DNA of 64,000 nt from Gammaproteobacteria bacterium (GTDB taxonomy: Bacteria > Pseudomonadota > Gammaproteobacteria > Steroidobacterales > Steroidobacteraceae). Both the position numbers and the translations under genes were made by a program. The notes beneath the pieces are model-generated. The model made no database searches. It worked only from the letters and a program-made list of their open reading frames with translations, and was not told the origin of the DNA. The stretch is from contig JAABQQ010000227.1 in assembly GCA_011391405.1 (NCBI GenBank), forward strand, positions 18,100 through 82,099. Direction: 5' to 3'. Of this stretch, positions 5,937-59,985 are shown piece by piece; within the stretch, counting starts at the first letter, position 1, and every line of letters begins with the position of its first letter.

Positions 5937-5966
5937 GCGGTTGGGCTTCAGGGGTTCGCGGTGATG

Positions 5967-6035
5967 GACCGGGATTTGGTTCATTCCCCTGCGCGCCAGG
6001 AAACATGCGCGCGGGAAATGAACCAAATCCCGGTC
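5967..6035. repeat. Long near-perfect palindrome downstream of phaC
   Basis: gaccgggatttggttcatt-ccc..gcgcgc / gcgcgcgggaaatgaaccaaatcccggtc, arms about 29-30 nt, roughly 10-nt loop. Confidence 0.85.
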
Positions 6036-6226
6036 TGACCGACGGCGCCTGAGCTGCCGTGCTCGGCGACCGAGCACGTTCGCACGGCGCATCGACATCG
6101 GGCTTGACCAGCAGAATTTTGGGGTCGCGGCCACAGCCCTGAGTTCGACTGCGTAACGGTGCGACCCGGCGGTTACTGGGCCGGGATGGTCACCAGCGGC
6201 AGCCGGCCGAGCACAGGGACCGTCGG

Positions 6227-9747: not shown

Positions 9748-10869
9748 ATGACCTCGCCAAAAGCCGCCCGCACGTCCACGCGAGCATCCGCGCGCAGCGT
9801 GCTGCATGCGACCGCGGACATGTCGGTTGCGCCGCTGCAAGCCATCCCCTCCTTGCTGCGTGAGTTCGGAGTGGAGCCCTCGCCGGTGCTCGAGCGCGCA
9901 GGAGTCGACCAGGGTGTGCTGGCGGACGCCGCCAATCGCCTGCCCTTTGGTCTTGTGGGTCGACTCCTCGACGAATGCGTGGCCGCCAGTGCGTGCCCCC
10001 ACTTCGGCTTGCTCCTTGGCATTCGATCCGGCCCCGCCGCCGCCGGCATCGCTGGCCATCTCTTCAGGCATGCGGAGTCGGTACATGCAGCACTGCGCCT
10101 GTTCATCGCGCACCTGCACCTGCACGACCGTGGCGGTGTCGTCGCACTCAACCCGCACGGCGCCGAAAACGTCGAACTTTCGTACTTGATCCATCACCCG
10201 AATACGCCCGGCACAGCGCAGATCCTCGATGCGAGCATCGCCATCGCTTGTTCCGTCATGAGGTGCCTGTGCGGCGCCCGATGGACCCCATCCGAGGTCA
10301 CGTTGTCCCGCGAGCGGCCGCGAATGGTGGGACCGTACCGCTCTTTTTTTCATGCGCCGATCAGGTTCGACGCCCCTCACTCAGCGTTGATCTTTCCGGC
10401 ACGCTGTCTCGATCAGGCGGTCGCGGGCGCCGACGCGGCCGCCAGAACCCGCTTGCTGGCGCTCGCGGTTGAACTCGATGCTGCTCGGCCCGCCACCGTT
10501 ACCGAGCTGACGATCCGCGCCCTGACTCGCATGGTCATCGCAATGCCGCCTTCGACCGACCGGGTCGCACAGGTCCTGGGCGTCAAGCCACGCAGGCTGC
10601 GAGAGCGACTCGAGGCCGAAGGCAGCAGCGTCAAGGGACTGCTCGAAGATCTGCGCTGCGAGCTGGCGCGGCAACTGCTGGAGGATTCGCGCATGCCGAT
10701 CGCGGAAATCGCGGCAACGCTGCACTACTCCAGGCCTGGCGCGTTCTCCCGTGCCTTCAAGGGCTGGACCGGCCAGACTCCACGACAATGGCGAACGGCT
10801 GTCGGCAGGCGCGCACGAACTACCCGAGCCCGCCACCGACCGCAAACGCGGATCCAGGCGTGCGCTTGA
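9748..10869 (+). CDS. AraC-family transcriptional regulator
   Basis: C-terminal AraC HTH (MPIAEIAATLHYSRPGAFSRAFKGWTGQTPRQWR); 373 aa; stop codon lies in the adjacent palindrome. Confidence 0.9.
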   Translation: MTSPKAARTSTRASARSVLHATADMSVAPLQAIPSLLREFGVEPSPVLERAGVDQGVLADAANRLPFGLVGRLLDECVAASACPHFGLLLGIRSGPAAAGIAGHLFRHAESVHAALRLFIAHLHLHDRGGVVALNPHGAENVELSYLIHHPNTPGTAQILDASIAIACSVMRCLCGARWTPSEVTLSRERPRMVGPYRSFFHAPIRFDAPHSALIFPARCLDQAVAGADAAARTRLLALAVELDAARPATVTELTIRALTRMVIAMPPSTDRVAQVLGVKPRRLRERLEAEGSSVKGLLEDLRCELARQLLEDSRMPIAEIAATLHYSRPGAFSRAFKGWTGQTPRQWRTAVGRRARTTRARHRPQTRIQACA

Positions 10870-10986
10870 TCCGGCGCTTGTCCCCGAGCGCGTGTCTGCC
10901 TTTCCAAGCTCGGGGACAAGCGCCGGATCAAGTGCACGCTAGTGTCGCGTCTCTGTCATACCAAGCTCGGGGACAAGCGCCGGATC
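10861..10986. repeat. Palindrome plus additional loop and right-arm copy (family A)
   Basis: cttgatccggcgcttgtccccgagc / gctcggggacaagcgccggatcaag around loop gcgtgtctgcctttccaa; another copy gcgtctctgtcataccaagctcggggacaagcgccggatc 57 bp downstream. Confidence 0.9.
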
Positions 10987-11055
10987 GACCGCACCGAGGT
11001 GCCGCATCCCTGCCTTGTCGCGCGCCAGAGGTAATGGAAGGGCGCAAGGCGCAGG

Positions 11056-31316: not shown

Positions 31317-31460
31317 GATAGGGGAAATTGGGGACGCTCACCTATTACTGAAATTGGGGACGCTCACCTATTACTGACAGTGGGGTGAGTTATGGGTGAG
31401 GAGTAATAGGTGAGCGTCCCCAATTTCAGTAATAGGTGAGCGTCCCCAATTTCCCCTATC
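31317..31460. repeat. Perfect inverted repeat with tandem units in each arm
   Basis: 59-nt arms 31317-31375 and 31402-31460 exactly reverse complementary, 26-nt loop; each arm has two copies of aaattggggacgctcacctattact. Confidence 0.97.
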
Positions 31461-57794: not shown

Positions 57795-57830
57795 CCGGAG
57801 CAGGAATCCCCCTCCTGCTCCGGTTTTTTT
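57795..57830 (+). terminator. Rho-independent terminator
   Basis: ccggagcagga-atccccc-tcctgctccgg followed by ttttttt. Confidence 0.92.
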
Positions 57831-58136
57831 GCTCGAGCCCCGGATCATGCTGGTCTGCTGCGGGAACTGGGGTAAGAAAAGCAGGCTTTCCCGCACTTCC
57901 GAGTTCAGCCACGAGCCAACCTTCAGCAGCGGTGCCAAGTTAAGGGTCCTGCACCGCCGCTTGTGCGGTACCGCAGACTACGCGAGCATCTCCAGATAAA
58001 GAATTGCACGGACATCGCCGGAAACCAGATGGGCACGGGCCGGTCATATACCGACACTGGGTCTGTGGACCGACATGCATGTCGTTGAATTGAAAGTCAG
58101 GCGTGACAGTCGCGTTCCGTACGTTGCGAGGTAGCG

Positions 58137-58574
58137 ATGAAAGAAATCGAAGCCACAAACATCGCGGTCGTCCGCAAGTATTTTGACGGTTGCAACACCG
58201 GCAATCTCGAGGATCTGCTAAGCACGCTCGCGCCAGACGTTTGTCACTACTTCTTGCCCCCATCGTTTCCGCCGATCACTGGCGCGGAGCACCTCGCCCG
58301 ATATTGGCGAAAATACAAACACGCACTGGACCCACTCTGGTCAATCGATCGGATCATTGCCAGCGGCGACGAAGTCGTCAACGAGTGGAGTTGTCTGTGG
58401 ACCCCGCCGGGAAGCAAGCTCCGGCTTATGGCGCGAGGCACCGAGTGGTACGTCATGCGAGACAGCCGTATCGTCGAGGTCCGGGCGTACTTCATCGCGG
58501 ATTCAGCCGCCAACGCCGAGTTGGCCACGTTCCCGTACGCGCAAAGAGGCTACCTGCTCAGCGACGGTGCATGA
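58137..58574 (+). CDS. NTF2-like/SnoaL-like protein
   Basis: 145 aa; NIAVVRKYFDGCNTGNLEDLLSTLAPDVCHYFLPP..ITGAEHLARYWRKY.. Confidence 0.85.
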   Translation: MKEIEATNIAVVRKYFDGCNTGNLEDLLSTLAPDVCHYFLPPSFPPITGAEHLARYWRKYKHALDPLWSIDRIIASGDEVVNEWSCLWTPPGSKLRLMARGTEWYVMRDSRIVEVRAYFIADSAANAELATFPYAQRGYLLSDGA

Positions 58575-58602
58575 CGCCCTTGGGCGGCCCCACCGCGGCG
58601 AC

Positions 58603-58680
58603 GCCTAACCCTTCGCTCCTGCCGACTGTCTCCGGCTGCCTTTGCCAGTCTCCGCCAGCGGGTGAGTTCAATTGTTGAGA
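58603..58680. other. attC-like recombination site (degenerate candidate)
   Basis: GCCTAACccTTCGcTCctGCCGACtG...GACTG/CAGTC inner pairing...GTTGAGA, 28 nt after the NTF2-like stop codon. Confidence 0.4.
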
Positions 58681-58776
58681 TTCCGCTTTTCGACGCGGCC
58701 GATGACCGCTTCGGGTCGTCATTCACCGTTGACGGACTGCTATTCGGTTTCACGCAAGTTCGAATGCGTATCCGAC

Positions 58777-59076
58777 TTATCGCTGAGACGCGAGTGCGCG
58801 CTCGAGTAGTTGGCAGATGAAGCGCTGGTACGGTACGCCGCTTTCGGCGGCCGCGTCCTTGACGGCCATCAGCAAGTCTTCGGGCAGATGCGGTCGATCA
58901 GGCGTTCGTTCCTGGTCTTCCCCGGGCGAGCGTGTCTGCCTTTCCGCTCGCCCGGGGAAGACCAGGAACGAACGCACTCGCCGACCGTCAGCCCTGGCTC
59001 GTTCTTTCCAGTCGCGTGTCTGCTTGCAGCGTAAGTCACCCTTTGCCCGAAGCACACCCGCACGACCTGGTGACAT
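58777..59076 (-). pseudogene. Ribbon-helix-helix (BrnA/CopG-like antitoxin) ORF containing a palindromic insertion
   Basis: C-terminal RPHLPEDLLMAVKDAAAESGVPYQRFICQLLERALASQR resembles RHH antitoxins; preceding residues are encoded by the palindrome 58903-58974. Confidence 0.5.
58903..58974. repeat. Perfect palindrome (family A)
   Basis: cgttcgttcctggtcttccccgggcgagc / gctcgcccggggaagaccaggaacgaacg, 29-nt arms, loop gtgtctgcctttcc. Confidence 0.95.
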
Positions 59077-59085
59077 AGCCTTTGC

Positions 59086-59985
59086 TCAAACACCCAGTTC
59101 GGCGAGCAGCTTGTCGATCATCCCTGCCGCCTGCCGGCCGTAGCCGCCACCGAAGAGATTGAAGTGATTCAGCACGTGATACAGGTTGTACAGCGTGCGG
59201 CGCGTGCCAGCCGCCTGGTCGAGCGGCCATGCCGACTGGTAGGCAGCGTAGAAGCGCGGCCCGAAGCCGCCGAAGAGCCGGGTCATCGCCAGGTCCGTCT
59301 CGCGATCGCCGTAGTACACCGCGGGATCGAAGATCGCTGGTTGCCGCGAACCTGACACCACGCCCCAGTTGCCACCCCACAAATCGCCGTGCAGCAGCGA
59401 CGGCACCAGGTGATAGCTGGAAAAGAACGCCCCACAGCGCTCACCCAGGTCATGCCCACGTTCGACGACGCGCGATTCCAGTCCGTTGGCTGCCGCAAGA
59501 TCGAGCTGAAACCCCAGCCGTCGTTCGCGAAAGAACCGGACCCAATCGTCGTCCCATTCGTTCAGCTGCGGTGTCACGCCGATGGCGTTGCCGCGATGCC
59601 AGCCGCAGCGCGGCGCCGTGATCCGGTGCTGCATTGCGAGCCGCTCGCCGAGCTGCGCCTGCACTTTGCCGTCGCTTGCGGCCGCTGGCTCGAGATCCAG
59701 CCATTCGAGCGCGAGCAGCGCGTGGCCTCCAGCCTCTCCCACTGCAAGCACCGCTGGCACGCGCAGCGCGCCGGCCTCCGCCAATGCCTGTAGTCCTGCT
59801 GCCTCGGCCTCGAACGCGGTCAACCTGTCCGCCGCTGCGAGCTTGACGAAGGCATCGCCGCCCGCACCGTGCCAGCGCGTGCAACGATGAATGCTGCCGC
59901 CGGTGACCTCGGTTGCAGACGTCGTGACAAATGTTCGCCCCATGTTGCGGGACAGCCAGTTGGAGATCGCAACGTCGGCGGTCAT
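59086..59985 (-). CDS. Fructosamine kinase family protein
   Basis: PSLLHGDLWGGNWGVVSGSRQPAIFDPAVYYGDRETDLAMTRLFGGF. Confidence 0.95.
   Translation of the reverse strand: MTADVAISNWLSRNMGRTFVTTSATEVTGGSIHRCTRWHGAGGDAFVKLAAADRLTAFEAEAAGLQALAEAGALRVPAVLAVGEAGGHALLALEWLDLEPAAASDGKVQAQLGERLAMQHRITAPRCGWHRGNAIGVTPQLNEWDDDWVRFFRERRLGFQLDLAAANGLESRVVERGHDLGERCGAFFSSYHLVPSLLHGDLWGGNWGVVSGSRQPAIFDPAVYYGDRETDLAMTRLFGGFGPRFYAAYQSAWPLDQAAGTRRTLYNLYHVLNHFNLFGGGYGRQAAGMIDKLLAELGV

Follow-up and report, generated by a model that had tools for sequence, protein, structure and literature searches.

The window analyzed here is the whole stretch of 64,000 nucleotides, and near its 58.9-kb position a long hairpin, which we call H2, lies between a SnoaL-like gene on the left (58137..58574, + strand; PF12680, E 5e-16) and a fructosamine kinase gene on the right (59086..59985, − strand; PF03881, E 2e-93) whose 3′ end points toward the hairpin. 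Of a CopG antitoxin-type gene only a C-terminal piece remains (58798..58887, − strand); it stops at the element start and matches positions 49-78 of 79 of the PF12441 profile with 27.4 bits, just below the 28-bit Pfam cut-off. SnoaL-like gene, CopG remnant and hairpin make up a lineage-specific block of 1.27 kb (57830..59098) that is missing in two congeners, G004 and G005, where the gene for aldehyde dehydrogenase directly adjoins that for fructosamine kinase at the orthologous junction, with no counterpart of the block between them. In G005, the SnoaL-like gene sits at another place, with a similar hairpin.

The two H2 arms (58902..58932 and 58945..58975, + strand) are 31 nt each, slightly more than the 29 nt given in the preliminary description, and are 100% complementary with 12 unpaired nucleotides between them (58933-58944), confirming a perfect palindrome. 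Folded as single-stranded DNA, the hairpin reaches −46.2 kcal/mol, whereas shuffled sequences average −16.7 (z = −12.2). The conserved 15-mer CGTGTCTGCCTTTCC (58931..58945, + strand) spans this unpaired loop, and the window contains two exact copies of it where 0.15 are expected, the second at 10891-10905, so that the loop is the same at both sites, as had been described. The stem, in contrast, had been called completely different, and this is wrong: both window stems fit one family pattern, and the 58.9-kb stem belongs to a stem subfamily in which the 5′ arm of a G005 locus (L167) is identical to it at 28/30 positions. BLAST of the region (query 991-1106) matched G004 and G005 at 84-92% identity, and the 3′ flank that begins with ACTCGCCGACCGTCAGCCCTGG (58976..59003, + strand) is common to other members of this subfamily.

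Two further elements of the kind lie in the window. The sister H2 hairpin (10858..10939, + strand; arms 10858-10889 and 10908-10939) carries the AA-loop subtype, compared to the flush-loop subtype at 58.9 kb, and is followed by a tandem remnant unit (10942..10994, + strand) made of a degenerate loop and a second 3′-arm copy 57 nt after the first 3′ arm. A third element (5959..6097, − strand), a composite of H2 and the second hairpin, H1, described below, has a loop of the ATGTTTCC type and lies between a convergent PhaC-type gene and an open reading frame with no Pfam match. A 59-nt perfect inverted repeat with tandem GAAATTGGGGACGCTCACCTATTACT units, also between convergent genes (31317-31460), is a separate repeat family and not of this kind. 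No known RNA family could be assigned as the identity of the element, as Rfam gave no match at gathering score in the window and only sub-threshold matches, mostly to miRNA-type hairpin models, at six loci.

In the genome, whose 293 contigs add up to 3.54 Mb at an estimated completeness of 78%, CGTGTCTGCCTTTCC has 76 exact copies and a further 12 that differ by one mismatch, compared to none for the reversed control, and almost all first-position loop copies lie inside the loops of hairpins of about 30 bp. Over all fetched genomes the H2 loops divide into an AA subtype (n = 99 sequences) and a flush subtype (n = 43), with AA-type stems following the pattern GCGNNYGATCCGG...CCGAGC. The 5′ arms differ strongly, with a median pairwise identity of 43%, and the two arms of a copy change together: among 46 AA-type copies 97.0% of cells are paired compared to 73.8% after shuffling, two-sided changes occur in 29/30 stem pairs (287 such cells versus 58 shuffled), none of 500 shuffles attains such pairing and covariation, and pairing falls to 44-46% once the partner is shifted by a single column. 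Because the stems share a pattern and covary, the description as one loop on a varying stem is right and that of an unrelated stem is not. A fixed loop on a varying stem is the opposite of what REP elements show, and copies throughout the genome and the genus have this arrangement; to the question whether further copies share a single stem, the answer is intermediate, as there are many copies and these fall into several stem subfamilies with strong covariation.

A second hairpin, H1, lies directly 5′ of most H2 copies. It has a conserved base, GCGCCGTGCGA...TCGCTCAGGCGC, and a tip that varies in sequence and length, while in H2 the stem, about 30 bp long, varies with pairing kept and the loop is nearly fixed. 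RNAalifold recovered both hairpins from 25 composites, with two-sided change in 33/41 pairs. At the 58.9-kb copy no intact H1 was recognized by eye; the covariance model nevertheless matches there at 58837-58983. Two H1 tips in other congeners (L194, 1515-1581, in G001 and L200, 1597-1667, in G008) are themselves perfect or near-perfect hairpins of 32-33 bp with unrelated sequences. The family pattern has no T-run after H2, and an intrinsic terminator, which needs a G+C-rich hairpin followed by a T-run, was rejected for that reason.

The element is restricted to one genus, with dozens of copies per genome. The H1+H2 model gave matches in all nine genus genomes and in 0/109 others, its counts being lower bounds, since the filters were stricter and scoring was limited to 27 candidates in each genome. 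Three congeneric genomes (G000, G004 and G005) contain the 14-nt loop, which among 98 genomes is seen elsewhere just once, outside any hairpin; a longer loop pattern, run against 85,000 species, matched only two other MAGs, whose contigs agree with G004 and G005 in both length and position. Congeners carry the loop ATGTCTTCYTC or one near it, shorter but related, on different 30-bp stems. We found no match of the 58.9-kb copy to plasmids, of another element copy to phages, or of the loop pattern to viral contigs.

We then located the copies relative to genes called by a purpose-written codon-usage gene finder rather than taken from curated annotation. Convergent intergenic sites account for 46 of the 79 clusters with both flanks assigned; by comparison, 8/59 of the window's gene pairs are convergent (p = 7e-8), as are 28/156 in longer loci. 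By hand count, the outermost H2 on each side faces a gene 3′ end 91 times and a 5′ end 21 times, mostly at convergent sites where both flanking genes show their 3′ ends; where the flanking genes are codirectional and the copies single or in tandem, the ratio is 13 to 4 (p = 0.049). Close element pairs are divergent in 42 cases and convergent in none, and on a simple reading each of two convergent genes can own a separate element.

The types of stem mismatch differ between the strands. On the loop-forward strand, which carries GTGTCTGCCTTTCC, G-T mismatches outnumber A-C by 83 to 25 and purine-purine mismatches outnumber pyrimidine-pyrimidine by 47 to 14. Since related copies inflate the raw p-value, it was replaced by one count per stem cluster, which left ratios of about 2:1 and 2-3:1, respectively (p = 0.0001-0.02 depending on the clustering threshold); for single-copy mismatches under the loosest clustering the bias is weaker (p = 0.2-0.3). 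H1 shows an excess of purine-purine mismatches (34 to 6) and none of G-T (18 versus 18). The mismatch types, taken by themselves, suggest that the strand with GTGTCTGCCTTTCC is the folded one, as RNA or single-stranded DNA.

In 25 comparisons of orthologous H2 sites between G000 and G004 or G005, change had affected 162 of 700 stem pairs. In 111 of these both arms differed and still paired, where arms changing independently would give about 9. Stems diverged at 20% of sites and outer flanks at 11%, compared to 33% for the inner alignment of adjacent non-coding DNA and 5% for loops, the last figure being rough because loops were partly chosen by sequence and one ortholog (L107) has nine loop differences. 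The stem was closer to a paralog than to its ortholog in 16/26 comparisons, as at L073/L128 (18/30 identity to the ortholog versus 29/30 to a paralog), and changed stems often match a family copy elsewhere in the genome at 29/30 or 30/30 positions. Some of the two-sided stem change is block replacement, and elements are exchanged between copies. The arms had been proposed to be inverted duplications of local sequence, which does not agree with stems that share a family pattern and match distant copies at this level. H1 was closer to a paralog in 11/25 comparisons (H1 versus H2 difference, McNemar p = 0.27), and since H1 is exchanged as well, the exchange is not proved to be specific to H2.

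Within arrays, hairpin and remnants follow one constant order. Among 142 arrays, 94 hold a single hairpin, 37 a hairpin with one remnant, 3 a hairpin with two remnants, and 8 no scoring hairpin; none is remnant-first, the intact hairpin is proximal to H1 with loop+3′-arm remnants behind it in 40/40 cases, and tandem units are mostly spaced by 57 nt. These remnants are older loop+3′-arm units. At one orthologous pair (L016 in G000 versus L111 in G005) a new hairpin in G005 occupies the position of the G000 5′ arm, and behind it the old 3′ arm is kept at 32/32 positions. A second candidate for direct replacement, L018/L037, was set aside because its remnant arm comes from a common subfamily and the alignment does not single out the pair. 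Four non-pairing first-position units with a good loop show indels or a lost arm and not mosaic arms. The mobile loop of the preliminary description survives, altered, as replacement of a whole hairpin next to H1, leaving loop+3′-arm remnants. An 11-mer suggested as the seed of such an event is indeed present at about 59.016 kb; it lies about 85 nt off the loop, which is not the 57-nt tandem period.

The loop of L177 (G004), and that of L085 compared to L123/L167, is inverted relative to H1 or to the copy or ortholog compared, as if flipped between the arms. In the orthologous pair L096 and L114 (G004), G004 is without most of one H2 and the start of its 5′ arm remains. Comparison with empty orthologous sites, which had been recommended, did yield sites with no element, but only as larger block differences or as DNA that does not align: the 58.9-kb difference is the whole 1.27-kb block, and at 10.89 kb the intergenic DNA gives no alignment with G004. 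Of the two marks of a miniature transposon (MITE), neither a target-site duplication nor a clean insertion limited to the element was identified at element sites.

We searched for an enzyme that might move or use the element and found none among the Y1 transposase, IS91-type Y2 and reverse transcriptase families, an absence that is weak evidence because the MAGs are 78-91% complete. Y1 transposases (PF01797) are absent from G000 and G004, and the Y1 loci in congeners have no flanking H1 or H2; a RAYT was rejected as partner, as it neither follows the carriers nor is flanked by these hairpins. IS91-type Y2 enzymes (PF04986), absent from G004 and present in the non-carrier G006, were rejected on distribution. 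Reverse transcriptases, absent from G005, do not track carriers either, and the two such open reading frames that we read resemble group II intron maturases by eye. A transposase between widely spaced copies was likewise rejected, only host-type open reading frames being found there.

Several known systems share part of this design. Rolling-circle origins and other hairpins of HUH enzymes have a conserved loop on stems of variable sequence and act as one folded strand, and our element resembles them in its conserved loop, its variable stem and, judging from mismatch types only, its preference for one strand. It perhaps works like such loop-recognized hairpins, an analogy that stops at resemblance, as no HUH gene (PF01797, PF04986) shares the element's distribution, nor does the element come with a replicon or transposon. 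Integron attC sites carry GTTRRRY and RYYYAAC boxes at their base; H1 is like them in its conserved base and tip of variable length, but its bases GCGCCGTGCGA and TCGCTCAGGCGC, compared by eye, do not fit these boxes. In mitochondria of Nematomorpha, perfect inverted repeats lie inside protein-coding genes and their arms evolve in concert (PMC6649704). The arms of our element likewise change together and remain complementary, whereas for the Nematomorpha repeats neither a conserved loop nor a dispersed multi-copy family is reported (PMC6649704). A search of the open-license literature for elements with a conserved loop and a variable stem gave nothing matching.

REP families of the GTAG and CGTC types have stems of 5-13 bp with an unpaired GTAG or CGTC at the palindrome end, often together with a RAYT (PMC3733652; PMC8266576). 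Our elements share with REP and BIME elements the short palindromic form, the high copy number, the intergenic position, usually downstream of genes, and the restriction to a lineage (PMC3733652; PMC8266576), as well as frequent opposite-facing pairs and G-T pairs in their stems. They differ in the variable stem of about 30 bp, the conserved loop, the coupled H1, the lack of a tag and of a flanking RAYT, and the one-sided remnant arrays. The element is best called REP-like, differing from REP in tag, stem length and RAYT association. That it is a standard REP/BIME family moved by a REP-associated tyrosine transposase is very improbable and already contradicted: the high copy number, intergenic sites downstream of genes and inverted pairs agree with it, but the consensus beside H1 (...TGCNT|GCGCC...GGCGC|...) and beside H2 (...TCAAGCG...CGCCNGC...) contains neither GTAG nor CGTC, the stem is far from 5-13 bp and varies around a conserved loop, and Y1 genes are missing from two of the carriers and have no H1 or H2 flanks in congeners. 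Fold-back synthesis that duplicates local sequence around a mobile loop, the model of the preliminary description, is scarcely credible, since H2 stems share a family pattern and in most copies examined match distant family copies and not flanking DNA; the conserved loop on variable stems and the long, mutually unrelated H1 tips of some G001 and G008 copies are what it would lead one to expect.

Our tentative reading, to which we give somewhat less than an even chance, is a non-autonomous, REP-like two-hairpin repeat, restricted to the genus and spread via a folded single strand by a putative trans-acting enzyme. This enzyme, acting on single-stranded DNA, would recognize the folded H2 via its loop and the H1 base, tolerate the H2 stem mainly as a 30-bp spacer of free sequence, and cut or join where the loop begins on its 5′ side; the resident 5′ arm would in this way be displaced by an incoming hairpin with its spacer, and gene 3′ ends would be the sites preferred. 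Possible, but on the doubtful side, is that homologous recombination (gene conversion) among dispersed copies moves blocks and that one arm is copied onto the other when replication switches template at a quasi-palindrome, producing perfect stems with no dedicated enzyme and largely without selection. Both are general processes, copies have loop and H1 sequence in common, H1 is exchanged as well as H2, and the inverted loops of L177 and of L085 versus L123/L167 fit exchange between arms; the Nematomorpha repeats provide a case of concerted arm evolution for which template switching is discussed as a possible cause (PMC6649704). Crossovers in the loop, however, should often yield mosaic arms, and the four non-pairing first-position units show indels or a lost arm instead; the remnants are one-sided in 40/40 arrays, and a mismatch bias toward one strand is unexpected. 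Exchange of H1 and the concerted arm evolution known elsewhere favor recombination plus template switching, whereas one-sided remnants and the few mosaic hairpins among first-position copies favor a dedicated process over plain recombination.

Fixed placement and maintenance of the fold leave room for a function at gene 3′ ends, as RNA or DNA, for example as a barrier to antisense transcripts entering the gene, with the fold under selection and mobility secondary. The orientation toward gene 3′ ends with an excess in convergent intergenic regions, the two-sided changes at orthologous sites, the loop divergence of 5% versus 33% in adjacent non-coding DNA (for loops partly selected by sequence), and the tolerance of G-T on the strand carried by transcripts heading toward the gene's 3′ end all agree with this. 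We consider it unlikely, as H2 has no following T-run in the family pattern, REP elements show a similar placement (PMC3733652), presence varies among congeners, and the strand that preferentially folds is antisense to the neighboring gene, so it is not the 3′ UTR of that gene. The order in which we rank an enzyme, recombination and 3′-end function, from the most to the least probable, reflects the balance of these three sets of facts.

Bacterial palindromic repeats are usually defined by a conserved stem and an end tag. In this element it is the loop that stays constant, and the 30-bp stem can take on any change that preserves pairing. With ordered remnants and orthologous sites in three species, the spread of the element and the upkeep of its fold become directly testable, and an enzyme, recombination, template switching and selection are the candidate causes to separate. 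A more specific form of the enzyme reading, which we think rather unlikely, is a hairpin cassette system in which the enzyme would recognize the loop and the neighboring hairpin base and add new hairpins proximal to H1, the loop+3′-arm remnants staying in order and the stem serving as a sequence-free ruler. If this were true, gene 3′ ends would hold a polar record of past hairpins.
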